Source: Acidobacteriota bacterium
Lineage (GTDB): Bacteria > Acidobacteriota > Terriglobia > Terriglobales > Acidobacteriaceae
Direction of reading: 5' to 3'
Assembly (NCBI GenBank): GCA_021781495.1
Contig: JAJXWS010000030.1
Location: forward strand, 1 to 37,955
Length of the DNA: 37,955 nucleotides
The notes under the pieces are model-generated. The model was not told the DNA's origin, ran no database searches, and saw only the letters and a program-made list of their open reading frames with translations. A program made the translations under genes and the position numbers. Of the stretch, positions 8,391 through 27,411 are shown piece after piece (the first letter of the stretch is position 1; each line of letters begins with the position of its first letter).

Positions 8391-8397
8391 CGCAACG

Positions 8398-8428: not shown

Positions 8429-8550
8429 GCGCGTTCCCGCAGCTTTTTTCACGCCGGCAGAACATCGTTCGTTCCCGGGCATTCCGCAGAGAACGCACTG
8501 CACTCGTCCAGGCACGCTTTGTTACCATGCGCTTTCCAAACGGAGGATGC

Positions 8551-9957
8551 ATGACGCTCGATCGGATCTCGCGCCGCTCTTTTATGAAAGCTTCTGCCGC
8601 TGCTGCCTTGGTCAGCCCGGCCGCATCCCTCGCAGCACAGGAGGCTGGAGCCAGCCCGCCCAGCACCGTGCACGGCAGGCTCGCTTATCAGGAGCAGACG
8701 CGGGCCCGCCGCCTGGCCTGGTGGCAGGCGGCACGCTTCGGCATGTTCATCCATTTCGGGCTTTACAGCGTCATCGGCCAGCAGGAGTGGGTCATGGAGT
8801 CGGAGGGCATTCCCATTCCGCAATACGAACTCCTCGCGCAGCACTTCAAGCCCAGGGCCGGATTCGCGCAGGAGTGGGTCCGCCTTGCTCGGCGTGCTGG
8901 TCAAAAATATATGGTGCTCACCACCAAGCACCACGAGGGCTATTGCCTTTGGGATACAAAGCTCACCAACTTCAGCGCCGCCCGAACGGGTCCGGGCCGG
9001 GACCTCGTCCGCGAGTACGTCGAGGCGGCACGCGCCGCAGGCATGCGCATCGGCTTCTATTACTCCCTCATGGACTGGCATCATCCAGACGGCATGCGCT
9101 GCGCCACCGATGAGAATGCGCGCAGGCGCTTCGTCGATTACACACACGGCCTGCTTCGTGAGTTGATGACGAATTACGGCAAGATCGACATCCTCTGGTA
9201 CGACGTAGCCCAGCCACTTACTCCCGAGCAGTGGGAGGCGGATCGCATGAATCGCATGGTCTTCGAACTGCAACCCGAGATCATCGTCAATAACCGCAAC
9301 GGCCTCGATGGAGACTTTTCTACACCCGAGCACAAGATCCAGGCCGACAAGCGCGCATGGGAATCCTGCGAAACGATGAATCTTGGCTGGGGCTATCAGC
9401 AAGCCGACAACGAATGGAAATCCGCGCGCCGCATCCTCAAGGACCTCGCCACCTGCGCACAGCAGGGCGGCAACTATCTGCTCAACATCGGCCCGGAACC
9501 CGACGGCACGGTACCGGACGAATCGGTTCGTACGCTTGAGACTGTCGGCCGGTGGCTCTCAGTCAACGGCGAGTCCATTTACGACACGCAGGGCGGGGCC
9601 GCCCTCAGCTTTGGCAACTACACAAACTTCACTCGCAAGGGAAACACCCTGTACATCCACGTTTACTTCTGGCCCTCCGGCACACCAGCAGCCCAGTGGC
9701 TCCGCTTCTTTCAGCCGCCCACCGTCGTCGCAGTGGGCGGTCTGCATGCCAGTGTGCTTTCAGCAAGGCTGCTCAAGACAGGGCACCCCGTCACATTCAC
9801 GCAAGACGAATTATCCTTGCGCATCACAGGGTTGCCGGAGCAGCCCATCGACGATCCGGTCACCGTCATCGCCTGCGAGTGCGACCAGCCACCCGTGGTC
9901 GATCATCACTCCATCCGCCCCAGGTGGCCGCGTTACAGCGTGGGTCTCAGCAGTTGA
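8551..9957 (+). CDS. GH29 alpha-L-fucosidase, Tat-exported
   Basis: From the ATG at 8551 this is a 468-residue GH29 retaining alpha-L-fucosidase. Landmarks are WWQAARFGMFIHFG (57-70), the substrate-binding KHHEGYCLWD (126-135), SLMDWHHPDG (172-181) and IDILWYD (212-218), where D218 is in the nucleophile position. A C-terminal beta domain follows residue about 360. ISRRSFMKA (6-14) followed by an alanine-rich stretch is a clear Tat signal, with cleavage near SLAAQ (26-30). GGAGG (8542-8546) supports this start. An in-frame ATG at 8527 would add eight residues, and longer extensions run into the divergent promoter. The general acid/base cannot be fixed by eye because it is poorly conserved in GH29. 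It is divergent from the glycosidase operon and convergent with the TonB-receptor gene. Confidence 0.92.
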   Translation: MTLDRISRRSFMKASAAAALVSPAASLAAQEAGASPPSTVHGRLAYQEQTRARRLAWWQAARFGMFIHFGLYSVIGQQEWVMESEGIPIPQYELLAQHFKPRAGFAQEWVRLARRAGQKYMVLTTKHHEGYCLWDTKLTNFSAARTGPGRDLVREYVEAARAAGMRIGFYYSLMDWHHPDGMRCATDENARRRFVDYTHGLLRELMTNYGKIDILWYDVAQPLTPEQWEADRMNRMVFELQPEIIVNNRNGLDGDFSTPEHKIQADKRAWESCETMNLGWGYQQADNEWKSARRILKDLATCAQQGGNYLLNIGPEPDGTVPDESVRTLETVGRWLSVNGESIYDTQGGAALSFGNYTNFTRKGNTLYIHVYFWPSGTPAAQWLRFFQPPTVVAVGGLHASVLSARLLKTGHPVTFTQDELSLRITGLPEQPIDDPVTVIACECDQPPVVDHHSIRPRWPRYSVGLSS

Positions 9958-10011
9958 GCCTCATGCTGCCGCGTTTCATCTGATTGCAGTTCGATCCGGA
10001 GCGCTGTCTTC

Positions 10012-12897
10012 TTAGTACTCAAAGTCCAGCGAGAACTGCACTCTGCGTGGATCCGACTCCTGCGTGGGAGTATCAAAGTTCGCGCTTGGGCTCAGGTTCG
10101 ATCCGAAGACATCGTTGTTCATCTCCACGTTCTGCCGGTTCAGCAAGTTGAATGATTCGGCCACAACATCCAGGTGGCCGCGCCAGATTGGAATCATCTT
10201 CAGCACGCGTAGATCAAAATCCAGCGTGCTTGGCGTTAGCATGCTGTTTCGCGCCATGCCCAGCGGACGCGCGGCAAAGGGATAGATATGCTCATCAGCA
10301 CTGTCCATGCCCGTCAGCGGATTGTCAGGCATACCGCTGCCTGCAACAAGAATCGGGGCAAACTCCAATCCGTACACCAGCCTCTCAAAGGCATTCGGTT
10401 TGGCAGCCATTGCCGCATTCTGTGCGTCATCCAGGTCTGGCCCAATCACCCATAGCCCGCTCAGCACAAAACGTTGACGCTGATTCTGCAAAGACAGTGC
10501 CCGTTCCTGGTTCAGCGCATATGGGTTCTGTGGCTGCTCCGCGTCGTACGAGGCATCATCGATTGTCTTGGCGAAGGTATAGCCTGCCATCAGTTCCAGA
10601 TCTTCCGTAAACTGGCGATTCACCGTCACCGTAGCGCCGTTGTAGCTTGAGCTGGCCGCTGTCTGGAATTCGTTTGTCGCATCATACAGAGGGTTCCGGC
10701 GCTGCGAAGAAAATACCAGCCGCCCAATCTGCTGTGGCGTGGGATTGCTGACGCCCAGACTACCCGCATCTCCTTCGGTCATCTGCACGGGCGGCAGCAA
10801 ATTGCTGTTTACCGTGCGCCCCATCTTCACACCGTGCACAAAGCGATATTCTCCGCCGATGGTCCAGTCGCCCGGCAAGGATCGCTCAAAGCCAAGCGAT
10901 GCAGTCTCCGCATATGGATTGGCAAGCGACCTTTGCGCTTGCCATATGCTCGGCGCAATATCCGCATCCGGTCTGGTGAAGAATGTAGACGACTGATAGA
11001 GTGCGGCGGCGCTTTGCCCTTCGGCAATCTGCTGCTCGGCGCCCTTCCCATTCCATTCTTCCACGCGGTTGATCGTCCCCAGCAGATAGCGATCGTAGAA
11101 AATGCCAAAGCCTCCTCGCACCACCCACTGCTTCTGCGGAGACCATGCAAATCCGAAGCGCGGACTGAGGTTCAGAGCATGATCCGGAATCGGCGACGGA
11201 AGCTGACTGCTCTCGTAGCGCATGCCAAAATCAAGCGCAAGGCTCCGCCAGGGAGTCCAATGGTCCTGCACGAACGCCGAACTCCGCAGTTCGCCAAAGT
11301 TCGTATTCGGATTGCCAAAGCTCTGCACGTAAAAATCCGCCTGCCCCGCCGCCAGCGCATCGACCGAAGGAAAAATGTACAGGCCTCCGAATCCATCTCT
11401 ATCGGCCGCGCGCAGTCCGGTATGACTCACAGCGGCTCCGGCCTGCATCAGGTGCGCGCCGTGCTGCCAGATCAGGGCATCTCCCACATCAACATGGGTT
11501 TCATAGCGGCGGCTGTTTCCGTCATAGGGAGTGCCCAATGCCGCTATCCCCGTCACCACCACGCCGGGGCCATACGTGGATCCCGTCCGCAAAGCCACGC
11601 GTCGCTGTGCAACCTCGAATGTGCTCTGGCTCTCCAGGTGCGATGTAATGGAATCACTCCATGCCCCATTCACGCTGTTGTCGTCATAGAATGCAGAGCC
11701 GCGCGCACTCAGATCGGTCAAATCGTCCATATGAAAGGCATCGTTCACTGCTCTGTTGTTCGTCAGCGCATAGCGCAGCATCAGGCCGTTGCCGCTGTTG
11801 CCGAAATCCAGCCTGCCAGACAGTTCCGTCTCTTCATTGGTCGTAGGATAAAAACCCTGTTGCAGGCGGAACCCTTGCAGAGGGCCACTTTGCCGCAATG
11901 CGGAATCAATCCCCGCTGCCTTGTTTGCGCTAAAGTCGCTTGCTTCTTCGCCTCGCGCCATCTCCTGCTCGGCCGCTGCGTAGTAGAACAGCTTGTCGCG
12001 CCGCAAGGCTCCGCCAGTTGATACACCTGCACGCATGCGGCTCTCATCCGGCTTGCCGGGCGCAACCTCCAGCGCAGGCGTGCCATTCAGCGCGCCATTC
12101 TGCACAAAGAAGAATGCGTCGCCATGTTGCGTATTCGCGCCCGCGCGGGTCTCTACGTCAACAGATCCTCCAGCCGAACCACCCGCCTGCGCCGCATAGC
12201 CGTGATTCACCACCTGAAAGTCACTGATGGCCTCCGGCGACAACTCAGTGCGGCTCAACCCTGTGTACTCATCATTATCGTCAACCCCGTCTATATAGAG
12301 GGCGTTGCTCGACGGACGCAATCCACCCGCGGTAAAGCCACCTTCCGCGGCAAAAGGCGCCTGTCGCGCCAGCACCGGATTGGCCCCGGCAAGGGCAGGA
12401 GACAAGAGCGTAAAGTTCAGATAGTTCCGGCTCGGAATCGGCAGTTCCTCAATGCGATCCTTGTCGATGTTTGTGACGGGGGAAGACTGCGACACATCCA
12501 GCGTCGCAGCCTGTGCCTGCACGGTCACCTGCTGTGCAGCCTGCGCAAGAACAAGGCTTGCCTCCATGCGCGAATCTCTGCCAACCGCAACCGCGACGGA
12601 CACATTGCGATAAGGCGCGAATCCAGCGGCTTCGATGTCAATTTGATACGTTCCGCTCAGCAGATTGCTGATGGAAAATGTGCCGTCCGCGCCCGACATT
12701 GCGTGGCGTTCGATCGTCTTGTCTGCCGTGGAAAGCGTGATACGGGCAGCAGGAATGGCAGCACCGGTTGCGTCCAGCACAACACCGGAAACACTTCCCT
12801 TCACAAGGCCGGTTTGGGCCGAAGAAGATAGATTGGGCAGAAGAAAAAGAAAAATGAGGAAGAACCGCAATCTTGCGGTCAGCTGCAAATCATGCAC
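10012..12897 (-). CDS. TonB-dependent receptor, Oar-like, with regulatory-like N-terminal domain
   Basis: This is a 961-residue outer-membrane receptor. A signal peptide (hydrophobic 11-22, cleavage near SSSAQ at 24-28) precedes a carboxypeptidase-regulatory-like beta domain (about 31-118, with GVVLDATGAAIPAARI and SGTYQIDIEAAGF). A plug follows (about 130-260, with RPSSNALYIDGVDDND at 194-209 and AQAGGSAGGSVDVET at 236-250), then a beta-barrel to the C-terminus. The last residue is Tyr (SLDFEY), as expected for an outer-membrane barrel. This architecture is abundant in Acidobacteriota, where it is thought to import glycan fragments or other large ligands. There is no SusD homologue beside it. 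The start is GTG with AGGAG seven bases upstream; the ATG four bases further in is out of frame. The setting among seven glycosidase-type genes suggests oligosaccharide uptake. Confidence 0.9.
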   Translation of the reverse strand: MHDLQLTARLRFFLIFLFLLPNLSSSAQTGLVKGSVSGVVLDATGAAIPAARITLSTADKTIERHAMSGADGTFSISNLLSGTYQIDIEAAGFAPYRNVSVAVAVGRDSRMEASLVLAQAAQQVTVQAQAATLDVSQSSPVTNIDKDRIEELPIPSRNYLNFTLLSPALAGANPVLARQAPFAAEGGFTAGGLRPSSNALYIDGVDDNDEYTGLSRTELSPEAISDFQVVNHGYAAQAGGSAGGSVDVETRAGANTQHGDAFFFVQNGALNGTPALEVAPGKPDESRMRAGVSTGGALRRDKLFYYAAAEQEMARGEEASDFSANKAAGIDSALRQSGPLQGFRLQQGFYPTTNEETELSGRLDFGNSGNGLMLRYALTNNRAVNDAFHMDDLTDLSARGSAFYDDNSVNGAWSDSITSHLESQSTFEVAQRRVALRTGSTYGPGVVVTGIAALGTPYDGNSRRYETHVDVGDALIWQHGAHLMQAGAAVSHTGLRAADRDGFGGLYIFPSVDALAAGQADFYVQSFGNPNTNFGELRSSAFVQDHWTPWRSLALDFGMRYESSQLPSPIPDHALNLSPRFGFAWSPQKQWVVRGGFGIFYDRYLLGTINRVEEWNGKGAEQQIAEGQSAAALYQSSTFFTRPDADIAPSIWQAQRSLANPYAETASLGFERSLPGDWTIGGEYRFVHGVKMGRTVNSNLLPPVQMTEGDAGSLGVSNPTPQQIGRLVFSSQRRNPLYDATNEFQTAASSSYNGATVTVNRQFTEDLELMAGYTFAKTIDDASYDAEQPQNPYALNQERALSLQNQRQRFVLSGLWVIGPDLDDAQNAAMAAKPNAFERLVYGLEFAPILVAGSGMPDNPLTGMDSADEHIYPFAARPLGMARNSMLTPSTLDFDLRVLKMIPIWRGHLDVVAESFNLLNRQNVEMNNDVFGSNLSPSANFDTPTQESDPRRVQFSLDFEY

Positions 12898-13003
12898 CTG
12901 GAAACTCCTGGGATGTGGTGGCTTTCACACGGCTACGTTCGGAAAAGTCCAGACGCACGACCACGCGCCTGCTCTCCCCTGCAGGTGAATTCACATTCAG
13001 GAA

Positions 13004-13327
13004 TCAGATTCGAAGAGGGACAATGGGCGGGCTTGGCGACAGCACCGCTTCCTGCGTCCGAGTCACGCAACCCGTGTTTACCGGAAGCGCGGGCGCGATC
13101 CATCGATGCACACTTGCCACTCGTGCAGCAGCGCGCACAATCTGCATCACTGCCCCAACCGTACCCGCCACGATCAGCCACGCCGTCACGCGCAACTCGG
13201 TATCCGTCATCGGCGTCGTCGGACCATCCCACCCGTCAAAGCACTCCAGCACAGGAGTCAATGCGACCAGCAGGAAGAATACGCATGCCACGAGTTGGAG
13301 AATTCGCCTCTGCATCATTTTCAGCAT
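13004..13327 (-). CDS. Small membrane protein, unknown function
   Basis: This is a short open frame of about 107 residues from the ATG at 13327; a TTG at 13351 would extend it by eight. It has two hydrophobic segments, one near the N-terminus (LQLVACVFFLLVALTPV) and one mid-protein (VTAWLIVAGTVGAVMQIV), with CFDGWDG between them. The pattern fits a two-pass inner-membrane protein with the loop outside. I do not recognise a family. No convincing Shine-Dalgarno is visible at any candidate start. It lies 106 bp upstream of the TonB-receptor gene on the same strand and could be co-transcribed with it. The opposite-strand frames over it read as arginine- and serine-rich shadow proteins, so this strand is the better choice. 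Confidence 0.5.
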   Translation of the reverse strand: MLKMMQRRILQLVACVFFLLVALTPVLECFDGWDGPTTPMTDTELRVTAWLIVAGTVGAVMQIVRAAARVASVHRWIAPALPVNTGCVTRTQEAVLSPSPPIVPLRI

Positions 13328-13495
13328 AAGCTGCGTTGCTGTTCCCGGCAACGCGATTCAGAAAGCCCGGCAAGGACATATTGGATTACAGAAAAATTCC
13401 GCATTCTGGAATATCCCCGTTCCCCGGCATCGGCTTCCCGGTAAGGCTATGACACGCATAGCATAATCAGGAGATAGAAAAGTAGATCTGAATCC

Positions 13496-15289
13496 GTGAC
13501 CGACCTGAATCCAATCACGCGCAGAGAGTTCCTTGCCGGCGCCGCAGCAGTTGCTCTTCATCGCCCCCTGTCAGCGCGCTCGACTGAAGTGGCTGCTCCC
13601 ATGCTCCAGGAGTTCGACTACGCACAGGTCCATCTGGAAGGCGGACCGCTCAAGGCGCAGTACGACCGCATCCACGCGACGTATCTTGCCCTCGACAACG
13701 ACAGGCTCCTTAAGGTCTACCGCCAGCGCGCAGGCATGTCCGCACCCGGTGCCGACATGGGCGGATGGTATGACGCCGATGGCTTCGTCCCCGGTCATTC
13801 GCTGGGCCAGTACATCTCAGGCCTCGCGCGCATCGGCGCAAGCACAGGCGACGCATCCTGCCATGCAAAGGTGGCTGCGCTCGTCGAGGGCTTCGCATCC
13901 GCCATGCAGCGCAGCCACAGTGTTTACGCCGCGGCGAACGCTGAGAAGGTCTGGCCTTGCTATATTCTCGACAAGCACATCGCGGGCCTCATCGACGCAG
14001 TGGCATTGAGCCACATGGACTCGGCGCGGGATCTTCTGCCGCGAGTCTACAGCGCCGCACTTCCCTTCATTCCAGCGCAAGGCCGCGATCGTATCGGCAA
14101 GAAAGACCCGCCCTACGATGAAACGTACGTGCTCCCAGAGAGCCTGTTTGCCGCGGCAGAATTGACTGGTGACCCTGCCATGCGCGATCGTGCCATGCGC
14201 TATCTGCTCGATCGTGATTTCTTTGACCCGCTGTCGCGAGGCCAGGATGTGCTGCCCGGCCGCCATGCATACAGCCACGCCATTGCGCTCAGCTCTGCGG
14301 GCAAGGCGCATCGGGTACTGCACGAGGAGAAGTATCTGAAAGCCATGCAAACCGCATGGACGCTGCTTACTCAAACGCAACAATACGCAACCGGCGGCTG
14401 GGGACCAAACGAACAGTTCATTGAACCGCACAGAGGCCAGCTCTATTCCAGCCTTCTCACCACGCAGGATCACTTTGAGACACCCTGCGGAAGCTATGCT
14501 GCCACCAAACTGGCGCGCTACTTGCTCTGTGCCACCGGCGAAGCTCACTATGGCGATGGCCTCGAGCGTGTTCTCTACAATGCACTCCTCGCCGCAAGAG
14601 AACCAGACAGCGACGGGGACTATCCGTATTACTCCACCTACAGCGCAGCCGCGCGCAAAGTCTACTATCCACAAAAATGGCCATGCTGCTCGGGCACACT
14701 CGTGCAGGGCGTCGCAGACTACGTAAAGAACATCTACTTTCGAGCTCCGGATGGCATTCGCGTCAATCTCTATGCCCCATCCACAGTTCAATGGCAACAC
14801 GGCGGCGCAAGCATTACACTCACGCAGCAGACCGATTACCCGCTGGGCGAAAACGTTCTTCTACATATCCGCGCATCGGTACCTACTGCATTCACACTCG
14901 GCTTCCGACTGCCCGAATGGCTTGCCGGACCAGCCACGATTCATGTAAACGGCATCCCTGTGGAGTTTCGGCAGCAGCGCGGCTGGGCAATGCTGCATCG
15001 CACATGGACCAGCGGCGACAAGATCCAAATCAACCTTCCGCAGAATCTCCATACAGTAGCAATTGACGATCTCCATCCAGATACGGTGGCCGTGCTGCGT
15101 GGCCCTCTGGTGTATGTCGAACTCAATCCGCCCGCGGGATCGTCTCCGCTGATGCCTCTCGATCGTCTGCAGAACATAGCTCATCTCAGCGGCTATCTCT
15201 CCGCCTCAAGTGCAGGATCGAGCCGCATTCTTGTCCCTATCTATCGCGTGCGGCAGGAAACGTACACCACATACTTCCAGAAGACATAG
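13496..15289 (+). CDS. GH127-type beta-L-arabinofuranosidase (DUF1680)
   Basis: This 597-residue protein has the GH127/DUF1680 fold, an (alpha/alpha)6 barrel followed by beta domains. Characterised GH127 enzymes remove beta-L-arabinofuranose using a zinc-bound cysteine nucleophile. MGGWYDADGFVPGHSLGQYISGL (88-110 region) is the conserved N-terminal hallmark. The zinc site should be E328 and C331 in HFETPCGS plus C397 and C398 in WPCCSG. The Glu-to-Cys spacing is three residues, against two (E338/C340) in the Bifidobacterium enzyme HypBA1. TRREFLAGAAAVAL (8-21) is a clear Tat signal. The GTG start preserves that signal; AGGAG at 13469-13473 lies too far upstream to be ideal. The gene stands alone on the plus strand, convergent with the large activase gene 54 bp away. 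Confidence 0.85.
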   Translation: MTDLNPITRREFLAGAAAVALHRPLSARSTEVAAPMLQEFDYAQVHLEGGPLKAQYDRIHATYLALDNDRLLKVYRQRAGMSAPGADMGGWYDADGFVPGHSLGQYISGLARIGASTGDASCHAKVAALVEGFASAMQRSHSVYAAANAEKVWPCYILDKHIAGLIDAVALSHMDSARDLLPRVYSAALPFIPAQGRDRIGKKDPPYDETYVLPESLFAAAELTGDPAMRDRAMRYLLDRDFFDPLSRGQDVLPGRHAYSHAIALSSAGKAHRVLHEEKYLKAMQTAWTLLTQTQQYATGGWGPNEQFIEPHRGQLYSSLLTTQDHFETPCGSYAATKLARYLLCATGEAHYGDGLERVLYNALLAAREPDSDGDYPYYSTYSAAARKVYYPQKWPCCSGTLVQGVADYVKNIYFRAPDGIRVNLYAPSTVQWQHGGASITLTQQTDYPLGENVLLHIRASVPTAFTLGFRLPEWLAGPATIHVNGIPVEFRQQRGWAMLHRTWTSGDKIQINLPQNLHTVAIDDLHPDTVAVLRGPLVYVELNPPAGSSPLMPLDRLQNIAHLSGYLSASSAGSSRILVPIYRVRQETYTTYFQKT

Positions 15290-15343: not shown

Positions 15344-18300
15344 TCAGGCAGTTGTTAGCTGGCTTTGCCGATGGCGCGCATGCACCTCGAACGCAAAATT
15401 GTCCAGCGCATCCTCGGCAAGCGGGTCACCGTTAAAGGCCAGCGTCAGGGTCGGCAATCCCTCGCGCTCGGCAGCATGGAAGAACTGCGATTCGGCGATG
15501 CGTGTTGGCATGCACTCCAGCGGGCCAACGTTCACTGCCGCATCAATCTCGCCATTCCGCCAGTCGTGCAGCGGCACGCCCAGCGTCAACACGGCCTCGC
15601 CGCCAACATCGCCCTCCACGTACTCACTCGCGGCGTCCGTCACTTCCTCCACGTGCAGCGGTGCGGCCAAAGGCAAATGCCCGGCCATTGCCTGCCAGGT
15701 AACCATGCGGATACGCTGCCGCAGCGCGTCAATCGCCCGATCAATCGGCGTGGGAGGCGTGACCTCCTGCTGGCAGTGCTCCGTATACTCAAACCATTCT
15801 CCAAGCGTGGCGCATCGCACCCGCATGCCGCGCGCTTCCAGCTTTGAGATCACGCCTTCATTGGCGAAGGCATCATTACGGACGTAAATCTCACCCACCA
15901 GTTGCACAATGGGCAAAGAACCTTCTCCGCATTCTGCCGCAAACTCCTCGGCTGCTCGTCGCAGCAGCGTACGCATGCCGAACAGCTTCCCTGTCATCAC
16001 CTGCATCACCGCCTGCGCCCGCGACTGGATCGCCTGCTGTTGCCGCTCGACCAGCGCAAACAGCTTTTCTGTATAGCGCGCATAGATCTCATTCGCAGCC
16101 CCCGCGCGCCGCTCGGTTGGCCGCACGTGCAGCAGAGCCTCATGCAGCATATCGTGCGCCAGGATGCCCGACAAAAAAAGCGCGGTAAATCCAAGCGGCA
16201 ATCCCTCAAAATAATCCGCCTCGTTCGGCGATACAAAGCGGCATCGCTCTCCTGCTCCCAGGCGCTCCACCACAATCTTCTGCAACAGGTGATACATGCC
16301 CATGCGGCACGGCCCATTCGTGCGCGGCATCATGTACGCAAATCGTCCCTCGGGCTCGCTCTGCAGTTTCTGCAGCAGCCGCCCCAGCGTCAGGCTTACC
16401 GGAACGCATTCCTTGCCGGAGGTGTGGCGCCGGCCAAGCTGCAATGCATTCCGATCCGGAATCGCCAGGGCCTCCGCCTTGAAGCCAGCAGCGCGCAAGC
16501 ATGCGGCTGCAACGTATGTGCCGGGTCCCATCCACGGCACCAGTACCGTCTCCCTCGCTTTGTCGATGCCGGAAAAGTCGCAGACGCGTTCTTCCAGCGA
16601 CGGCAGATCCCTGGCTGCTCCGCGAGTGCCGCGTGCTGCGCGATCCTGCGCCACACAATGCAGAAAGGCTTCAATGCGCGTCTTGGTTCCCGCATCGCCC
16701 GCATGCCCGTCGGTTTCGATAATCGCAAACGGCTTACCCTCCATCACGTAGGCGAAGAAGTGCAGATTAAAACTGTCCGGACCGCAGGAATAATTGCTGC
16801 AATACACGCTGTACACGCCGGGCGTGCGGCGAATCTGGTGCGCCGCGCGGAGTAATCGTTGCGCATATCCCCAATACACGCGCCGCAGCACCGGCGCATC
16901 TCCATCCACCGGGAAGCAGTCCGCTGGAATCGCGATGGCCCCCTGTTCCCGCAGAATGGCCGGCACGTTCGAGTTCAGAATCGGGTTATAGATGGTGTAA
17001 GGACGTCCCAGCACAACCACCGGCGTAATGCTTTGCTGCCCGCAATACTCCAGCGCGCGCCTGCCAATCTCAGTGCACTCATCCATAAAGCGCTGCTGCG
17101 CTCTTATACCCACCGCGTGAGCGCGCTGCCATGCGTCGCCTGCAAAGCCCAGCATGCGCGCCAACTCCGCACAGCTCTTCTTGAACTCCTCTGACTGCAG
17201 TCCGCGCGGCCCCATCTTGATCTCAGGAGATAGCCATCGCGCGTGCCCCTTGCCATTCAGATCCATGCGCAGCAGGTAAGGTGCAGATTGCACCACCGGG
17301 CACACCTTGGCATATGGCTCATCCACGGCACGCAACGTGTTCCGCAGAATCGGCGCCAGCACCATGTCCGCATCCATCTCGCGCAGTTGTGCCGCCACGC
17401 CGTGGAACAGTTGCATTGGCGCGCAGAAGGGAACATTGGATTCCTGGATACCTCGCTTCAGTGTTGCCGGATCCGTGCCGCTCACAGACGTAAGGTCACA
17501 TCCCAGTTCATGCAGAAACGTAGCAAAGAAGGGATAGAGTTCCTTCAAGACAAACTCGTCCGTTAGGGCAACGCGCACACCGCCGCGATCCGGACCGAAC
17601 TCCGCAAGCATCTGCGCAATCAGTTGCTCGCGCTCCTGGAAAGGCTGCGGCGCGCGATCCGGCAGCTTGCGGCGCCGTGTCGCCTTCTCATGCAGTGAGC
17701 ATGCGCCACCCCACGTAAACATTCCGCCCTTGCCCGCCACCACCGTGCGCAGTCTGTCGATCCTGCAGCGATTTCCCGGCGCTCCGCAGCCAACCGTAGC
17801 ATTACAGATAAAGGTGCTTCGTTCCTCCACTTTGGCTTCCAGAAAGCGATTCAAATCCAGCGGCGGCACTTCACTCCACGCCAAGTCTGCATGCGCCAGG
17901 AGCGTTATGCCCAGTGCTCCCACCGTTCCCGGATTCGGCGGAATGATGACCTCGCTTCCTGTCTGCCGCGCAACCGCGGCGGCCAGCGCATCGGCGCTGA
18001 AGGGCATGCCCTGACAAAAGATCACCTGCCCCACAGAGCGGCTACCTTTCACGCGATTCAGATAGTTCTGAATAATCGAGTCATACAGCCCCGCGATGAT
18101 CGTGTTCTGCGGCAGTCCCGCTGCCACGGCCTCATCGATGATCTCCGCCATGAACACCGAGCAGTGCTGTCCCAGGGACACGCCTTCCCCTGCCGTCAAC
18201 GCGACCTTGCCCAGTTGCGCCACGCGCTCAATACCGGCAAACTTGCGCCCCTGTTCTTCAATAAACGATCCAGTCCCTGCGCTGCAGGCTTCATTCATCG

Positions 18301-19621
18301 CGCAGTCAATCACGCGTCCCTGTTCCAGGCGGATGTACTTCGCATCCTGGCCACCGATCTCAAAGATCGTATCCACGCGCGGATCATAGTGGCAGGCGCC
18401 CTCCGCATGCGCCGCAATCTCATTCTGGATAAAGACCGCACTCGGCCCATAGCATTTCGTCAGCAGCGATCCAACAATCTCGCGTCCGCTGCCGGTCACG
18501 CTTGCGCCACGCACCGGCTCGCTGCCCATCGGGCTCTCCAGAAATTCACGCCACAGCGCCTGTGCTGCTTCCACCGGAGCGCCGCGCGTCTCGCGGTAGG
18601 CGTCCCACACAATCGCCTTTGTGTTCGCATTCAGGGCAACCGCCTTCGCTCCGGTTGACCCGATATCCAATCCCAGAATCAGATTGCGTGCCGATCCGTT
18701 GCGCGCCTCCCATGGCACAGACGGCATGCGCCGCACGCGGCCCAGGCAGGTCGCAAGGGCCGGCGTGCGCTCCAGTGTCGCCCCCGCATGATTGCTCATC
18801 AACTGGTCCACACCGGGTGCCTGCAGCGTCTGCTCCGCTGCCAGCAGCGCCGCGCCCAGCGCCTCCCAGTGCAGGCCATCCTCGCCCGGTACCAGCAGTT
18901 CATAGCCATGCTTCGCCAGCCGGTCCCGAAACGTCCGCTGTACGCGAGGCGACTGGCTCACTCCGCCTATCAGCACAATCGGTCCCGGGCTGATCCCCGG
19001 CTTGATCAGGTTCAGTACGTTTTCGCACACCGCATCAAACAGCCCGGCCAGTATCTCTGCCCGGTTCTCGCCCTTGTTGGCAAGATGCGTCATATCCGTC
19101 TTCAGAATCACGGGGCAGCGGCCTGAAAGTGCCGCGGCATGCTCCACATCGGCGCACAGTGCGCTGGCCTCTTCCACCGCCAGGGAAAACCTTCCCGTCA
19201 ACTGACGCAGAAAGTTGCCGGTCCCCTGCGAGCACCGGCTGTTCTCGCGAAACACCTCGCGACCATTCGCCCTCACTTCCAAGACCGAGAAGCCATGGCT
19301 GCCAATGGACACCAGTGTCCCAGCGGTTTTGGGATAGAAAAACCGAAATGCCCGGGATTGCGCCTGTTGCAGCGGAACCCGGGCAAAGCTGAACTGGCGG
19401 CCCAGCCTGCCCGTCAGCGCTGCGCTGCTGAAAGTGGTTGCATCCCATTCGCGATACAGGCGGTCCAGAAGGGCCTGCGGTTCCTTGCCATGTTCCATGC
19501 GATAACGCCGCTGGATCGTCCACTGGCCATCAATCTGCGCCAGTTCCACCAGTTTCAGCGTCTCCGCTCCTGCATCGATACCAAGAACCCGCTGACGTGA
19601 CGCTTCCGCGTTGCCGGCCAT
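15344..19621 (-). CDS. Fused double-activase / 2-hydroxyacyl-CoA dehydratase-like iron-sulfur protein
   Basis: The protein has 1,425 residues from the ATG at 19621, which has AGGAG at 19632-19628; an upstream ATG would add 25 unlikely residues. Two BadF/BcrA/HgdC-type ATPase domains come first. Domain 1 (about 10-270) has LGIDAGAETLKLV, and C130 in NSRCSQGTGNF and C169 in SGRCPV. Domain 2 (about 312-580) has LGLDIGSTGAKAV, EIGGQDAKYI, C446 in NEACSAGTGSF and C487 in QHCSVFMAEIIDEA. The rest resembles DUF2229/HgdB-type dehydratase parts: PFCAPMQLFHG (732-742), GRPYTIYNPILNSN (872-885), YCSNYSCGPDSF (940-951), SGKECVPV (1068-1075) and GPCRMGMY (1103-1110). Known relatives use ATP hydrolysis to push low-potential electrons into an iron-sulfur partner. 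The substrate here is unknown, no separate HgdA/HgdB gene is nearby, and the setting between two carbohydrate regions gives no clue. Confidence 0.88.
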   Translation of the reverse strand: MAGNAEASRQRVLGIDAGAETLKLVELAQIDGQWTIQRRYRMEHGKEPQALLDRLYREWDATTFSSAALTGRLGRQFSFARVPLQQAQSRAFRFFYPKTAGTLVSIGSHGFSVLEVRANGREVFRENSRCSQGTGNFLRQLTGRFSLAVEEASALCADVEHAAALSGRCPVILKTDMTHLANKGENRAEILAGLFDAVCENVLNLIKPGISPGPIVLIGGVSQSPRVQRTFRDRLAKHGYELLVPGEDGLHWEALGAALLAAEQTLQAPGVDQLMSNHAGATLERTPALATCLGRVRRMPSVPWEARNGSARNLILGLDIGSTGAKAVALNANTKAIVWDAYRETRGAPVEAAQALWREFLESPMGSEPVRGASVTGSGREIVGSLLTKCYGPSAVFIQNEIAAHAEGACHYDPRVDTIFEIGGQDAKYIRLEQGRVIDCAMNEACSAGTGSFIEEQGRKFAGIERVAQLGKVALTAGEGVSLGQHCSVFMAEIIDEAVAAGLPQNTIIAGLYDSIIQNYLNRVKGSRSVGQVIFCQGMPFSADALAAAVARQTGSEVIIPPNPGTVGALGITLLAHADLAWSEVPPLDLNRFLEAKVEERSTFICNATVGCGAPGNRCRIDRLRTVVAGKGGMFTWGGACSLHEKATRRRKLPDRAPQPFQEREQLIAQMLAEFGPDRGGVRVALTDEFVLKELYPFFATFLHELGCDLTSVSGTDPATLKRGIQESNVPFCAPMQLFHGVAAQLREMDADMVLAPILRNTLRAVDEPYAKVCPVVQSAPYLLRMDLNGKGHARWLSPEIKMGPRGLQSEEFKKSCAELARMLGFAGDAWQRAHAVGIRAQQRFMDECTEIGRRALEYCGQQSITPVVVLGRPYTIYNPILNSNVPAILREQGAIAIPADCFPVDGDAPVLRRVYWGYAQRLLRAAHQIRRTPGVYSVYCSNYSCGPDSFNLHFFAYVMEGKPFAIIETDGHAGDAGTKTRIEAFLHCVAQDRAARGTRGAARDLPSLEERVCDFSGIDKARETVLVPWMGPGTYVAAACLRAAGFKAEALAIPDRNALQLGRRHTSGKECVPVSLTLGRLLQKLQSEPEGRFAYMMPRTNGPCRMGMYHLLQKIVVERLGAGERCRFVSPNEADYFEGLPLGFTALFLSGILAHDMLHEALLHVRPTERRAGAANEIYARYTEKLFALVERQQQAIQSRAQAVMQVMTGKLFGMRTLLRRAAEEFAAECGEGSLPIVQLVGEIYVRNDAFANEGVISKLEARGMRVRCATLGEWFEYTEHCQQEVTPPTPIDRAIDALRQRIRMVTWQAMAGHLPLAAPLHVEEVTDAASEYVEGDVGGEAVLTLGVPLHDWRNGEIDAAVNVGPLECMPTRIAESQFFHAAEREGLPTLTLAFNGDPLAEDALDNFAFEVHARHRQSQLTTA

Positions 19622-20164
19622 GTCTAGCTCCTGCGCTGTGCAGCAGCCATCCGCGCAAGCATGGACACGCATGCAGAGCGTCTTTTCAGAACCCAAAAGC
19701 AGGATCCGGTGAATTGTGGAAGGATTTTGACGCTAAGTCAGCGGAAATGCAAGAGGAGCACTCCCAATATTTTCGCTGCAGTCAACCGCTCTTTTCGTCA
19801 CGGCAGAATTGCAGGCGGCATCCATGCCGGGGGACGCAGACCAAGGCGGACACAGGTCGCCTCTTTAGTCTTTGAGAATGTGCAGCTTGCACATACAGTC
19901 GCACGCCGCGAAGCCGCTCGGGATGCGCATCTTCCGGCCCGCAGTCCGCACAAAGGAAATGTGCATCCAGTCAGCTTCGTGCATGCGCACCGTTCAGACC
20001 CTAGAATGAGATAACCTGCTCCGGCAGAAGCGCAACACCCGCAATCGCCGCCGCAGCCCTTCACCGATCCGTACCATGGAAGGGCGTCATGGCAGGACGA
20101 AGAGCAGGTGGCAGCCGTTGGGGATGACACGCTACCGGCAGGGATGAGGGCAAGGGAGGCAGCA
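19622..20164. other. Divergent intergenic region without a supportable gene
   Basis: This 543-bp stretch separates the minus-strand activase gene from the plus-strand acetyltransferase gene, so it should hold both promoters. Short open frames on both strands here have cysteine- or arginine-rich, low-complexity translations and no ribosome-binding sites, so I do not call them. I found no convincing -35/-10 pair; TAGAAT at 20002-20007 is a possible plus-strand -10. The only clear structure is the interrupted palindrome listed separately. Its length is unusual for this compact window and would allow for a small RNA or a long leader. Confidence 0.6.
19879..19893. promoter_or_regulatory. Interrupted palindrome TGTGCA-GCT-TGCACA, possible operator
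   Basis: Perfect 6-bp arms with a 3-bp spacer form a 15-bp dyad inside the divergent intergenic region, about 260 bp before the activase start and 270 bp before the acetyltransferase start. The size and symmetry fit a dimeric repressor or activator site. No regulator gene lies in the window, so its role is a guess. Confidence 0.3.
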
Positions 20165-20779
20165 GTGGCAAAGCAAATCCATTACACCGCGGCAGATTTG
20201 CAATCCCGCCCGGGCGCAGCCGACCCCTATCTTCGTCCTTCCTTCTCGCTTCGTGTTCGCCTCGTGCGCCTGCTGTGGAATCTCTGCTGGCTGCTTCTCT
20301 ATCGGCCGTCTCCGCGCCCGTTTCATGCCTGGCGCTCTCTGCTTCTTCGACTCTTTGGAGCCGGCATGGGGCCGAACTGCCACTTCTACCCCGGCTCGAA
20401 GATCTGGGCACCCTGGAACCTGACCTGCGCCGATCAGGTCACCGCAGCCGATGGCGTCGAGATATACAACCCGGCTCCCGTCCATCTTGGCTCGCACGCA
20501 ATTCTCTCGCAGCAGGCTTACCTCTGCGGCGCCACCCACGACCTCGATGATCCTGCCTTTCCGCTGCTCGCCTACTCCATGACGATAGGCGCTTATGCAT
20601 GGGTCTGCGCCCGGGCATCGGTCTGCCCGGGGGTCAACCTGGCTGAGGGCTCTGTACTGGGCTTGGGATCGGTCGCGACGCGCGACCTGGAGGCGTGGGG
20701 AGTCTATGCGGGAACCCCGGCGGTGAAGGTGCGAGAGCGAAGCCGGAGCGGAAAAGACGCTGGTTGCGTTCTAAGTTGA
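20165..20779 (+). CDS. WcaF-like left-handed beta-helix O-acetyltransferase
   Basis: From the GTG at 20165 this is a 204-residue hexapeptide-repeat acyltransferase of the colanic-acid WcaF / serine-acetyltransferase-like group, expected to O-acetylate a sugar using acetyl-CoA in the cytoplasm. A basic amphipathic stretch (24-65) precedes the beta-helix (about 67-185), whose turns include IYNPAPVHLGSHAIL and ASVCPGVNLAEGSVLGLGSV. H125 in CGATHD is the likely catalytic histidine, and AGTPAVKV (182-189) is the usual closing motif. GGGAGG at 20154-20159 is five bases from this GTG; ATG 20144 and GTG 20108 are in-frame alternatives with poorer sites. Its 3' end overlaps the convergent GT2 gene by 9 bp. 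It probably modifies the exopolysaccharide made by the adjacent cluster. Confidence 0.85.
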   Translation: MAKQIHYTAADLQSRPGAADPYLRPSFSLRVRLVRLLWNLCWLLLYRPSPRPFHAWRSLLLRLFGAGMGPNCHFYPGSKIWAPWNLTCADQVTAADGVEIYNPAPVHLGSHAILSQQAYLCGATHDLDDPAFPLLAYSMTIGAYAWVCARASVCPGVNLAEGSVLGLGSVATRDLEAWGVYAGTPAVKVRERSRSGKDAGCVLS

Positions 20780-21724
20780 AATCGAATCAGGCTCTCGCAG
20801 CTTGTCGATTGGCTGCCGTGTCAGGCGCTCTACCTCGCGCAGGGCAGCCTCTCGCGACGCAGCATTCCGGACGGCTTTCTCCAACTCGCGCAGCTTCGCG
20901 CCCACCAGGAAGCGATACCAGAACCCCTGCAGCGCGTGATACACCAGCCCTTCCCGACCATCCAGAAAGCCGAGTTGCACAATGTACCGGAAGAGAAAGT
21001 AGCCAATCGCCGACACTTCAAACGGCATTCGGTTATAGATGGATTCCTTTAGAAATCGCTTGATGCCAGCCTGCCGCGAAGCCGACGCCGCCGTCACCAT
21101 GGACTGCGACGGAAACAGTTGCCATCTCTGATTCAGCACATCGAGCGCCTCGCGACTCGCATAACGATTGTGCTTCTCAGTAAATGCGGTCAGGTCAAAC
21201 AGGTTGTCATCGGCAAATCCGCCGCGAAGCGTCACCGCGCGACCCTCAGTCAGATAGATGTGCTCATCCATCCACCGGTCCTCGATGCGAGCCTTGCCGC
21301 GCCGCCAAATGCGAAGCAGAATCAGCGGATACCTTCCGCCATGTCGGATGAATCTTCCCTGAAAGATCGTCTTGCGATTCAGGTTGACTCCCATCACATC
21401 CGGCGCGAGTTGAGGAAGCCGTGTCCTGATCTCCTGCGCCAGGTCCGGCTCCACAACCTCATCCGCATCCAGTCGCATCACCCAGTCTGCATGCATCGGC
21501 GTATGCTCCAGCGCCCATGCAAACTGCTTTGCTTGATTTTGAAATGGATGCTGCAAAACCGTCGCGCCGTATTCCTTGGCAATCTCGACCGTCCTGTCCG
21601 TCGAGAAAGAGTCCACCACAAAAACCTCTTGCGCAAATGCCGCAACACACTTCAGCGCGCGCGGCAAATGCCGCTCTTCGTTGTAGGTCAGGATGATGAC
21701 CGCAATGCTCGCGTCGTTCGGCAT
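20771..21724 (-). CDS. GT2 glycosyltransferase
   Basis: From the ATG at 21724 this is a 317-residue family 2 (GT-A) glycosyltransferase. The N-terminal Rossmann-like part has VIILTYNEERHLPRAL (9-24), VVDSFSTDRT (36-45) and the metal-binding motif RLDADE (84-89). The EERHLPRAL/SFSTDRT combination is that of the WaaE/KdtX-like beta-glycosyltransferase subgroup, here acting in polysaccharide assembly at the cytoplasmic face. The C-terminal part, with FEVSAIGYFLFRYIVQLGFLDG, looks membrane-associated. A TTG at 21769 would extend the protein by 15 residues that are atypical for the family; GAGAG stands before the ATG. It is the last gene of the minus-strand array, convergent with the acetyltransferase. 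Donor and acceptor cannot be told from sequence. Confidence 0.85.
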   Translation of the reverse strand: MPNDASIAVIILTYNEERHLPRALKCVAAFAQEVFVVDSFSTDRTVEIAKEYGATVLQHPFQNQAKQFAWALEHTPMHADWVMRLDADEVVEPDLAQEIRTRLPQLAPDVMGVNLNRKTIFQGRFIRHGGRYPLILLRIWRRGKARIEDRWMDEHIYLTEGRAVTLRGGFADDNLFDLTAFTEKHNRYASREALDVLNQRWQLFPSQSMVTAASASRQAGIKRFLKESIYNRMPFEVSAIGYFLFRYIVQLGFLDGREGLVYHALQGFWYRFLVGAKLRELEKAVRNAASREAALREVERLTRQPIDKLREPDSIST

Positions 21725-21809
21725 CAGACTCTCGTACAACATCCATGCAGATGCATTCTGCAATGGCAATACTCAACTCGCCGGCTCGGCATCTGCCGGC
21801 GCGATCCAA

Positions 21810-22742
21810 TTACGCAGATTCACGTGCGTTGCCGCTCGCCAGGGAAAGCTCGCACTGCTCCACAAATGTGCGCGGAATCTCAGCATAGGTGGAAAGCTCC
21901 CGCCTCGGATCCGGCAGAATGGGATGATATAGCCGCTTCGGAAACCACACTGTGGGCATCTGGCCTAGAAACGAAGACCACATGCTGAACGTAGAGCCGG
22001 ACGTGATCAATATCCTCGCCTGGCTCATGGCGAGAATGTCCGCAATGCTTGATCCGAAGCTCACACGCTTCACTCCCTCCATCGCAAGCAGCGGAGCGAT
22101 CTCCTCATCTCTGCCATCGCTGAAGATCACCGCCTGCAACGGCCCAAGCTGTTCGCGGATGCCCTTCAAGATGCCCGCATACCATCCAATATCCAACTTG
22201 GAATTTCCCCGCACAGGATCGGCATTCAGAAAATCTCCCAGACGCACATGGATCGCAATATCCGGCGAAAAGCCCGCTTGAATCGCACCCTTGTGCTTGT
22301 CGCGCACCATCGCAATTAATTCACTGCGCACCAGATCGCGATGCGCAAGGATCGGCTGCAAATATCCGTCGAAGCCCTCGAACACAACAATCGAGCCATC
22401 CGGGATCTCCTTGCCCAGTTGCGACTCTGGAACACGCCGCTTCGTGGCAAGCAGTCGCAGACGGTGCAACGGCTCAACTTCATCCTGCGCACGGCAGAAC
22501 AGATCATGGTAGGTCCGCTTGTCCAGCTCATGATGCATCCATGGCTCACGCTTAAACTGTGGCCATGTAGCGCCAATCCTCTTTAACCCATATCTGCGCG
22601 CCTGAATCAGGCAGCGCGCCCAGGTAAATAGATGATTGCCAAGCCCCGCGCCACCAAGCCGAATCAATCCAAGGTCCATGGCTCCTATCAGCCGGGGAAA
22701 TGCATAACAATTCCCATACATCGGCGCGGCTTCAGGCTCCAT
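21810..22742 (-). CDS. GT11-like fucosyltransferase
   Basis: From the ATG at 22742 the protein has 310 residues. It shows the layout of family 11 alpha-1,2-fucosyltransferases: a glycine-rich N-terminal motif LGGAGLGNHLFTWA (29-42), the GDP-fucose-binding segment IHVRLGDFL (164-172) and a C-terminal SGSTFSMWSSFLG (248-260). The usual HxRRGD motif reads HVRLGD here, so the second arginine is replaced by leucine. That makes it a divergent member and lowers certainty on linkage. GGGAG nine bases before ATG 22742 supports this start; ATG 22784, five bases after the upstream stop, is an alternative. The same array carries gmd and fcl, which make GDP-L-fucose, so a fucosyl donor is available. Confidence 0.72.
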   Translation of the reverse strand: MEPEAAPMYGNCYAFPRLIGAMDLGLIRLGGAGLGNHLFTWARCLIQARRYGLKRIGATWPQFKREPWMHHELDKRTYHDLFCRAQDEVEPLHRLRLLATKRRVPESQLGKEIPDGSIVVFEGFDGYLQPILAHRDLVRSELIAMVRDKHKGAIQAGFSPDIAIHVRLGDFLNADPVRGNSKLDIGWYAGILKGIREQLGPLQAVIFSDGRDEEIAPLLAMEGVKRVSFGSSIADILAMSQARILITSGSTFSMWSSFLGQMPTVWFPKRLYHPILPDPRRELSTYAEIPRTFVEQCELSLASGNARESA

Positions 22743-22789
22743 CGTGGTGCTCTCCCGGCTCAGCTGCAAACAGGTCTCCTGCATCGGAT

Positions 22790-23989
22790 TCAGCGCGCGG
22801 ACATCTGCGCGCACAAGTTCCGCTCTGCGTCTTGCTGCAGATACGATTCAATCGTGCTCATAAAGCTGCGCGCCGCCATTTCAACATCGAAGAACTGCGC
22901 AAATGCTCGCTCTGCGTTCTTCCTCATCACAGACCTTTCCTCGTCCGTGAGCGCGAGGTAGCGCTGTATCAAACTGTTGATGCCCGCCTGCGTATCCGGC
23001 TCCACAATGCCCGCGCCTGCACTCGTCACCTCGCGCCATATGTTCACCTTGTCACTGATCAGCACAGGCGTTGCGCATGCCATGGCCTCCGCGACCACAA
23101 TGCCGAAATTTTCCTGATGCGACGGCAGAATGAATGCATCCGCTGAGCGAAATGCTCCCCACTTCACTGCACCTGTCAGCATGCCCGGCCAGTGAATCCT
23201 TCTGGCAACGCCCAGCCTTTTTGCAATCCGCTGCAGTTCTGCCACCCACCCCGCCTGATCCGGGCCGGCAATCACCAGGTCCATATCCGGCGGTGCATTC
23301 GCAATGTTCTTAGCAAATGCCCGAATCAGCAGATCGCACCCCTTCTTCAGATGGATCCGGCTCAGATACAGCAGAAACCGCTTCCCCTGCAAAGCCGGGA
23401 ACGCAGCGCGGAATGCGCTTCGTTCGTCGTCCGGGTTGCCGTCCGGTGCCGCTGCTCCATACAGCACCACCTGCTCTCTATACGATGGGCCGAGAAATGC
23501 GTTGCGTGCACGAATGCGCTCCTCTTCGCACGTAAAGAGCACGGCACGCGCATCGCGCAGCACCGAGCCCTCGCCCAGCCACCACAGCATCTGCTTGGCA
23601 ACATGTTTCAGCGGATACTGCTGTCGAAACCAGGGGTCCAGCATACCGTGCACAAACAAAAAATACGGCGTGGGATGATCTCGCAACGCTCTCCAGGATC
23701 CCAGCGAGGAGTAGTTCCAAAGGCCATGCAGAATAACCGCGTCAAAGTTGACGGCATTCTCCCTCAACCAGGAAACAAGCCGCGGGTTATAACGATATCG
23801 CCCTAACCCGTTGCCCACGCCAATCACCGGAAATGGATACTGCCTGCCCGCAATCTCCGCCTCCGTCTCCAGGCTCACCATGGAGACAGCATGGCCATCG
23901 CGCATAAGCACTTCAGAAAATCTCAGCAGAGACTCAATCGGGCCGCCCGATTCCGGATTTGTCGTACAAATTACGTGCAGTAACCGCAT
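22790..23989 (-). CDS. GT4 glycosyltransferase
   Basis: This is a 399-residue GT-B fold glycosyltransferase, a normal length for family 4. The N-terminal acceptor domain starts MRLLHVICTTNPESGGPIESLLR with the glycine-rich loop usual in these enzymes. The linker and donor domain begin at FLLYLSRIHLKKGCDLLI (205-222), followed by VIAGPD (239-244) and the EX7E motif ENFGIVVAE (E293 and E301), which binds the nucleotide-sugar and marks a retaining enzyme. It is predicted to add one sugar of the repeat unit in the cytoplasm. It is in line with the GT11-like gene (47 bp) and the next GT4 gene (85 bp). Donor specificity is unknown. Confidence 0.88.
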   Translation of the reverse strand: MRLLHVICTTNPESGGPIESLLRFSEVLMRDGHAVSMVSLETEAEIAGRQYPFPVIGVGNGLGRYRYNPRLVSWLRENAVNFDAVILHGLWNYSSLGSWRALRDHPTPYFLFVHGMLDPWFRQQYPLKHVAKQMLWWLGEGSVLRDARAVLFTCEEERIRARNAFLGPSYREQVVLYGAAAPDGNPDDERSAFRAAFPALQGKRFLLYLSRIHLKKGCDLLIRAFAKNIANAPPDMDLVIAGPDQAGWVAELQRIAKRLGVARRIHWPGMLTGAVKWGAFRSADAFILPSHQENFGIVVAEAMACATPVLISDKVNIWREVTSAGAGIVEPDTQAGINSLIQRYLALTDEERSVMRKNAERAFAQFFDVEMAARSFMSTIESYLQQDAERNLCAQMSAR

Positions 23990-24074
23990 CCGCCCGCCAT
24001 TTCAGCGCATTGCATGGATAGGTAGTGTGTCTTTGGGAAAAGCTCGCAGCCGGTTCCAGCGCGTGCCGGATCGC

Positions 24075-25139
24075 TCACTTGTGCTGCTTCTCAACCGAAC
24101 GCAGCAGCACATCAGCCCACATGCGCGGGGAGTACTGTCGCGACAAAAGATGACTCGCCTCTGACATCGCGCCCAGTTGCCGATCGTCCATTGCACTCAT
24201 CCGCAGCATCAGGCCCGCAAGAGCATCCACATCCTTCGGATCAAAGATGTACCCGTTGTACTCGGGCTGCACCAGGTGCACCGCTGCGCCTACTTTGTCA
24301 GAAGCCAGCACAGCCAGCCCTGCTGACGTAGCCTCATGCACCACCAACGCCCAGGGCTCAAACACGCTTGGCAGAACAAGACAACCAGCTGACGCCATCA
24401 TGGCAGGCATCTGATCCGGCTGCACAAAGCCCTCAACACGTATGCCCGCCTGCCCTTCGAGGATGGGCTGCATCGGTCCAGTGCCGCAGCAGATCAGCGG
24501 CCACGGATCCTTTGCCTTTGAGCGGTACTGTGCATAGGCCTTCACCAGCACATCCACGCCCTTCTCGGGAGCGAGCCGCCCAACAAACAGAAACGCCCTG
24601 GGAGCACCACGCTGCTCTGCCTTGCGCGCCCGATACGCAGCATCAAACGCATCCTGATCGCAGGAGAAGGATCCGCGCAGAATCGCTCGCTGTGCAAAGC
24701 CAAGCCGCTTTGCAAATACGGCCTGGCGCTCTCCCGGAATCCAGGCCACGTCCGCAATTGGGCGCACAAAATACGGCGCAATCCAGGTGCCAATCCGCTG
24801 TTTCACCGTCGCACGCCAGCAGTTGTCCATGATCATCACACGCCAGCACTTCCCTGCCAGCAGCTTGGCTGCGCGGCGATACGGAGTTATATGCCACGAC
24901 GGCAAAACCACGATCTCCGGAGAAAAATCCTGCAGGCGCTGATCCAGGGAATTCAGATCCGCAAAGGTGCGCCACACCAGCCGATTTTGCATCCACGCAA
25001 ACTGCCTCTCGTCAAAAGGCGCAACCGTCTTCTGCGCCTCGTGGCTCACGAAAAGCTCCACGCCCTCGCGCCCGGCAAGCTCCTTCAGGCAGGCGTTCAT
25101 GTAGCCGGACAGGCCGGTCCAGAGAACTGCAACCCTCAT
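24075..25139 (-). CDS. GT4 glycosyltransferase
   Basis: This 354-residue GT-B glycosyltransferase belongs to family 4. The N-terminal domain is shorter than usual (MRVAVLWTGLSGYMNACLKEL onward). The donor domain has FLFVGRLAPEKGVDVLVKAY (183-202), CCGTGP (217-222) and the EX7E motif EPWALVVHE (E261 and E269). Between them lies DNCWRATVKQRIGTW (105-119), probably part of the acceptor site. The ATG overlaps the stop of the upstream GT2 gene by 4 bp (ATGA), so the two are translationally coupled and probably act on the same repeat unit. The sugar transferred cannot be deduced. Confidence 0.88.
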   Translation of the reverse strand: MRVAVLWTGLSGYMNACLKELAGREGVELFVSHEAQKTVAPFDERQFAWMQNRLVWRTFADLNSLDQRLQDFSPEIVVLPSWHITPYRRAAKLLAGKCWRVMIMDNCWRATVKQRIGTWIAPYFVRPIADVAWIPGERQAVFAKRLGFAQRAILRGSFSCDQDAFDAAYRARKAEQRGAPRAFLFVGRLAPEKGVDVLVKAYAQYRSKAKDPWPLICCGTGPMQPILEGQAGIRVEGFVQPDQMPAMMASAGCLVLPSVFEPWALVVHEATSAGLAVLASDKVGAAVHLVQPEYNGYIFDPKDVDALAGLMLRMSAMDDRQLGAMSEASHLLSRQYSPRMWADVLLRSVEKQHK

Positions 25140-25927: not shown

Positions 25928-25982
25928 CCTGTAATTGCCTGGCCCACTCAAAAAAATCGCGGTCGAATTCTTTAACGACTGA

Positions 25983-27317: not shown

Positions 27318-27411
27318 CTATAAATGGAATCCGTCTTGCTACAAGTTACAGTTGCGCCAGATCGATGCGAACCCGCATCCTTCCTTTGCTTTTGCTTGTG
27401 CAGGCAAGCCA

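Follow-up and report, generated by a model that had tools for sequence, protein, structure and literature searches.

Plasmalogen synthase is commonly encoded by one gene in facultative anaerobes, and the single-gene protein, PlsA, has been modelled with the domain order Act1-Act2-Red1-Red2 (PMC12838417). A second described system, Ger, contains two PF01869 domains and converts a glycerolipid ester to an alkyl ether in heterologous expression (PMC13274423, PMC11150832); the 159 kDa Ger of D. alkenivorans yields alkyl ethers in Escherichia coli on its own (PMC11150832). Here, we describe a gene from a soil bacterium of the Acidobacteriota (GenBank assembly GCA_021781495.1) that lies on contig JAJXWS010000030.1, analysed as a stretch of 37,955 nucleotides (the window), and whose product we assign with very little doubt to the PlsA/Ger superfamily. 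The reading frame runs uninterrupted on the minus strand from an ATG at 19621 to a stop codon at 15344-15346 and encodes 1425 residues (about 155 kDa); AGGAG is found just 5' of this ATG and the longest possible start is a TTG at 19696. The features of the gene are given below, with conservation counted over an alignment of the window protein and 73 orthologues (45-81% identity; 74 sequences in all).

15344..19621, minus strand: complete coding sequence including the stop codon, PlsA/Ger-superfamily putative single-chain ATP-dependent reductase; its full-length orthologues are those at 45-81% identity.
18818..19594, minus strand: activator domain 1, residues 10-268, ASKHA fold, BcrD/BcrA-like; second PF01869 stretch, sequence matches to HadI and HgdC in the PDB, and VIA-align.
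19232..19234, minus strand: codon of C130, predicted cluster ligand in activator 1; invariant (74/74).
19115..19117, minus strand: codon of C169, predicted cluster ligand in activator 1; invariant (74/74).
19277..19309, minus strand: phosphate-2 position of activator 1, residues 105-115, SIGSHGFSVLE replacing GGxD; a clade signature, with F111 in 73/74 and G110 in 74/74.
17873..18685, minus strand: activator domain 2, residues 313-583, HgdC/HadI fold; best stretch of the Pfam and TIGR00241 matches, and VIA-align.
18284..18286, minus strand: codon of C446, predicted cluster ligand in activator 2; invariant (74/74).
18161..18163, minus strand: codon of C487, predicted cluster ligand in activator 2; invariant (74/74).
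17993..18025, minus strand: adenosine-motif position of activator 2, residues 533-543, VIFCQGMPFSA replacing QGG; a clade signature.
17699..17806, minus strand: four-cysteine knuckle C606, C612, C619 and C641 between the activator and reductase halves; invariant (74/74), with an equivalent CxxCxxxC...C in other clades.
16646..17626, minus strand: reductase/dehydratase-like domain 1, residues 666-992, containing DUF2229 (PF09989) and the invariant C733, C774 and C946; VIA-align.
15347..16579, minus strand: reductase/dehydratase-like domain 2, residues 1015-1425, with C1072 and C1105 (74/74 each) and C1370 (72/72 with a residue there); its fold is only partly matched by VIA-align.

Pfam identifies two BcrAD_BadFG domains (PF01869; 1.7e-38) and DUF2229 (PF09989; 1.2e-37) in the protein, PF01869 passes its cut-off in each activator domain taken separately, and TIGR00241 (acyl-CoA dehydratase activase) scores above cut-off over two stretches, so that the comparison with BadF/BcrA/HgdC and DUF2229 profiles proposed in an earlier note on this DNA bears out the domain assignment. 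Of the solved structures, those closest to it in sequence are HadI, the reductase of the double-cubane cluster protein (DCCP), HgdC and the subunits MbdQ/MbdP. The same set of domains, two PF01869 and one DUF2229, is found in proteins from Listeria (L129; annotated as '2-hydroxyacyl-CoA dehydratase'), Myxococcota (L146), Scalindua (L145) and another acidobacterium (L135).

The two activators each contain a cysteine pair, C130/C169 (39 residues apart) and C446/C487 (41 apart), exactly as the earlier note had read them from the translated open reading frame. C130, C169, C446, C487, C606, C612, C619, C641, C733, C774, C946, C1072 and C1105 are identical in all 74 sequences, and C1370 is a cysteine in each of the 72 sequences that have a residue at that position. 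The chain thus carries 14 conserved cysteines: two in each activator, four in the knuckle, which is probably an extra metal or Fe-S site, and three in each reductase domain. Since all four activator cysteines are invariant, their conservation is far beyond chance. From homology to the dimeric HgdC-type and BcrA/BcrD-type activators we infer, on good grounds, that the four converge on one bridging [4Fe-4S] cluster. Those activators share the fold and a Cys-x39-Cys-type pair with the window protein, but they are separate homodimeric or heterodimeric subunits, whereas here both activators are joined in one chain with the electron acceptor.

The same 14-cysteine plan is common to the Listeria protein, to proteins from Collinsella, Haliovirga and Acetoanaerobium, to the split Fusobacterium form and to the anammox homologues. 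Single-gene PlsA (Enterococcus, Listeria and Collinsella, with PlsA-PlsR of C. perfringens as the split form) also has the same two activators, DUF2229 and second dehydratase-like domain, and Ger (T. maritima Tmari_0479 and D. alkenivorans SHJ90043) and the modified PlsA of anammox bacteria likewise place two PF01869 domains in one chain of about 1430 residues. Given this published layout and the shared cysteines, a single-chain four-cysteine activator is the norm of the PlsA/Ger family. The earlier note had therefore described the machine correctly, as a single-chain 'archerase' with both cysteine pairs fused to a dehydratase-like half, on which sequence, conservation and fold agree; it erred in taking the layout as unusual, since the same one-chain architecture has been published for PlsA (PMC12838417) and Ger (PMC13274423).

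Two overlapping and confident AlphaFold2 models, calculated from an alignment of 67 sequences of the clade to which the window protein belongs, cover residues 1-1000 [predicted local distance difference test (pLDDT) 87.5, predicted template-modelling score (pTM) 0.87] and 592-1425 (pLDDT 89.7, pTM 0.88). The activator 2 model superposes on HadI (PDB code 4ehu) with a VIA-align Z score of 27.1 and an r.m.s.d. of 2.3 over 257 residues, and the activator 1 model matches ASKHA proteins with a Z score of about 20 over residues 7-273. Residues 666-992 match HadC (PDB code 3o3n_B; Z = 14.8), DCCP (14.4) and BzdNO (14.1) over 274-283 residues; Foldseek also retrieves the HadC/BzdNO/DCCP fold (E values of 5e-5 to 2e-4, probability 1.00). 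In the second reductase domain, the C1072/C1105/C1370 spacing (33/265) resembles that of the C95/C128/C380 site of BzdO (33/252; ligands from PMC11971306). The window protein is like HadBC, BzdNO and DCCP/YjiM in the fold of residues 666-992 and has three-cysteine sites in both C-terminal domains; it differs in scoring below the HGD-D cut-off and in that the extra ligands of the double-cubane proteins are mostly missing by motif comparison.

These matches, together with Mbd folds among those of activator 2 and of the 666-992 domain, raise the alternative of a classical CoA enzyme, a 2-hydroxyacyl-CoA dehydratase or benzoyl-CoA reductase with four subunits fused into one chain. Of the benzoyl-CoA reductase subunit models, the BcrA type has its best fit at activator 2 and the BcrD type at activator 1, but these two and all of the others fall far below their cut-offs; HGD-D (PF06050) is likewise sub-threshold (17.8 versus a cut-off of 28.4 bits), and the chain contains DUF2229, which marks proteins of the PlsA/Ger group. 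The neighbouring genes encode a GH127 glycosidase and a protein like the hexapeptide transferases. On balance, we regard a fused CoA enzyme as improbable.

A double-cubane cluster in reductase domain 1 was also considered, prompted by C817, C902 and C989, and is not supported by motif comparison with YjiM. C902 and C989 are each present in 73 of the 74 sequences and mostly missing from other clades, but of the three only C902 coincides with a ligand position of the double cubane, C989 lies beyond the last ligand and C817 is lost in several orthologues. By motif, the profile alignment being weak, cysteines occupy the three canonical positions and at most one extra position (C902) of the six ligands of the [8Fe-9S] cluster.

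Taken as a member of the PlsA/Ger superfamily, the protein would be a single-chain, ATP-dependent, low-potential reductase. Activators 1 and 2 would form an internal heterodimer like BcrA/BcrD, with one bridging [4Fe-4S] cluster held by C130, C169, C446 and C487. ATP binding and hydrolysis would push single electrons, probably from reduced ferredoxin, to [4Fe-4S] clusters predicted at the three cysteines of each dehydratase-like domain. There, an acyl ester of a glycerophospholipid would most likely be reduced at its carbonyl and dehydrated, giving a vinyl or alkyl ether. We lean, with modest confidence, towards a glycerolipid ester as the substrate. In favour of this assignment are the presence of two PF01869 domains and DUF2229 in one chain, which is the published Ger/PlsA layout; the activity of D. 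alkenivorans Ger on its own, at a size close to that of the window protein; the 14-cysteine plan common to PlsA-type and anammox homologues; and the structural matches of activator 2 to HadI/HgdC (Z = 27) and of residues 666-992 to HadC, DCCP and BzdNO (Z = 14-15). The earlier note had suggested that the substrate could be new. PlsA and Ger act on glycerolipid esters, and with their layout known and the cysteine plan shared, a new substrate is not the default expectation.

The genomic setting is compatible with a lipid-ester reductase that acts alone. No partner dehydratase genes adjoin the gene, as the earlier note had observed, and the assembly (about 96% complete) contains a single copy of it and neither an HGD-D gene nor another gene with DUF2229; the chain therefore probably works unaided. 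Genes for 2-oxoacid:acceptor oxidoreductases (POR), which could supply ferredoxin, are present in the genome, as are two COX1 terminal-oxidase genes; judged by these genes, the organism appears to respire oxygen and to have a plausible source of ferredoxin. Also in favour of a lipid-ester substrate, iso-diabolic lipids with ether bonds are known from some acidobacteria in subdivisions 1, 3 and 4 (PMC13274423). A search of the literature for Geothrix or Holophaga ether lipids returned nothing usable.

Several observations weigh against a lipid-ester substrate. When 45 proteins are placed in one tree, the window group (clade A) is monophyletic with a Shimodaira-Hasegawa-like approximate likelihood ratio test (SH-aLRT) support of 100 and a long stem. 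It stands apart from Listeria-type PlsA (and from L129, L130, L131, L133 and L134), from the anammox type and from the split forms of acidobacteria. The window protein is thus not an orthologue of Listeria/Enterococcus-type PlsA, the identity being 21-24%. Ger is likened to the window protein by published layout and size, and an anammox proxy indirectly suggests that it lies in a different clade. Among Brocadiales, the order that includes the anammox bacteria, 58 of 62 genomes have a homologue, which is nearly always of another type (26-28% identical to the window protein in one comparison and about 30% in another), and the window clade occurs in only two of the 62; the ether lipids of anammox bacteria are for this reason independent of the window clade. 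Homology is moreover no guarantee of the reaction, since Ger2, a close relative of Ger, is inactive in E. coli (PMC11150832). Across the 73 orthologous loci no conserved lipid-gene neighbourhood was found, the commonest neighbour (a LysR-type regulator by sequence) being present in six. Finally, the nucleotide-binding motifs usual for these activators are absent from both activator domains.

This last departure, and the lack of orthology to the Listeria and anammox types, go beyond what the earlier note contained. In activator 1, the window clade has GSHGF where most other clades have GGxD, with GG kept in most of the others; in activator 2, it has QGMPF in place of the QGG of all other clades compared. 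Q537, G538, P540 and F541 are invariant in 67 sequences and M539 is conserved at 90% or more. Both motifs are intact in single-gene PlsA and in all 28 anammox-type proteins checked, and both are replaced in a clade A protein from the same order as the latter (L155). A sister group (L135, L136 and L146) shows intermediate states at the activator 1 GGxD, and the window clade has an insertion in the knuckle between the two halves relative to other clades. The sequences thus suggest an asymmetric activator pair whose use of nucleotide may have changed.

A decayed protein might show such losses: ATP use would have gone from one or both activator sites, leaving a chain that has ceased to act as a redox enzyme, or a foreign insertion would be in decay, with which the patchy distribution also agrees. 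Yet both substitutions are conserved across at least five phyla, the cysteines are invariant in the 74 sequences and neither the window copy nor any of the three relatives nearest to it has a broken reading frame, which makes a relic most improbable. The main rival to a lipid-ester substrate is instead the same machine with a diverged substrate, in which electrons would take the same path from activator to dehydratase-like domain and reach another acyl ester or lipid, or a hard-to-reduce compound. The monophyly of the clade, its long stem and its altered motifs speak for this possibility, and the presence of a clade A copy alongside another superfamily type in several genomes (Scalindua G099, Myxococcota G103 and the acidobacteria G436 and G507) hints that the two types may have separate tasks; PlsA/Ger and the clade nevertheless agree fully in their 14 cysteines and in domain order, and no neighbourhood points to another pathway. 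We consider a diverged substrate possible but doubtful. A stronger proposal, that the clade is a functionally distinct archerase branch in which each activator has lost a different part of the ATP site (GGxD in one and the GG of the adenosine motif in the other), appears to us rather unlikely; it would entail asymmetric firing, perhaps at one ATP for each electron or on a different nucleotide, and a substrate other than the sn-1 ester of PlsA/Ger.

The window clade has members in Verrucomicrobiota, Myxococcota, Spirochaetota and some of the Acidobacteriota, and our literature search found no characterised member. Only about a dozen of 396 acidobacterial genomes, in a few scattered families, have full-length members, and in the window's genus the gene is present in four of 59 genomes, its own included. 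A branch dominated by Verrucomicrobiota encloses the window copy together with the three sequences most similar to it (68-81% identity), with other acidobacterial copies elsewhere (quick FastTree tree and 45-protein tree), which suggests that the lineage of the window genome gained the gene laterally. The idea that the clade has no cultured carrier was abandoned: nearly all of the loci are labelled as metagenome-assembled genomes, but members also occur in acidobacterial genomes of few contigs, which are possibly isolates. No dsrA gene scored above cut-off in the deltaproteobacterial loci.

Related proteins were encountered alongside the clade. Two other genomes of the window's genus carry, in place of the window type, a different full-length superfamily protein (28% identical; L135 1938-6191 and L136 1753-6057). 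Its activator 1 is intermediate at GGxD, with the GG present and the Asp missing. A further activase of about 1150-1250 residues with two activator domains (L147-L153, from genomes G065, G083, G061, G047, G051, G027 and G032) is present in many acidobacterial genomes within and outside the genus, forms its own long branch in the 45-protein tree and adjoins a dehydratase-like gene product of about 560-620 residues in most loci examined. In Anaeromyxobacter sp. RBG_16_69_14 (L125, G102), the orthologue is fragmented by an in-frame stop and apparent frameshifts and represents a pseudogene or an assembly error. A stand-alone BcrAD_BadFG protein of about 318 residues (84.6 bits) is encoded elsewhere in the window genome (G000:C180:2161-3030); it has no obvious partner and is perhaps a sugar kinase of this fold.

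On one side of the gene, positions 221-15289 of the window contain a glycan-degradation island with several glycoside-hydrolase-like open reading frames (including a fucosidase-like one), a TonB-type receptor and the GH127 arabinofuranosidase, of which only the GH127 assignment is confirmed by Pfam. On the other side, positions 20108-37948 resemble an exopolysaccharide cluster, judged from translations of the open reading frames, with glycosyltransferases, a flippase, an O-antigen polymerase-like protein, a Wzc-like protein and enzymes of GDP-mannose and UDP-sugar metabolism. Elsewhere in the clade, a B12-binding radical SAM/DUF4070 gene lies 13-173 bp upstream in three verrucomicrobial loci (L044, L049 and L063), and an LplT-Aas-like acyltransferase region lies 2-4 kb downstream in L044, L047 and L063, two of which are identical; these neighbours are possibly lipid-related, but they are rare and too sparse to argue a function. 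In the loci of one acidobacterial family (f32), the gene lies near hisS and genes for a helicase and an efflux pump. The Collinsella locus has a TetR gene directly downstream, reminiscent of facultative anaerobes, in which a TetR regulator next to pls has been reported (PMC9702350).

That the fused layout is already known removes much of the surprise of the earlier note. What remains is a widespread clade, with no characterised member found in the literature, within a family that makes ether lipids and some of whose members are candidates for the pathway that forms branched tetraethers, which serve as climate proxies. The nucleotide sites of both activators are altered in a conserved way, and this sets the clade cleanly apart from archerases with the usual ATP site. 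The enzyme, which is probably oxygen-sensitive, is encoded by a bacterium with two terminal-oxidase genes.

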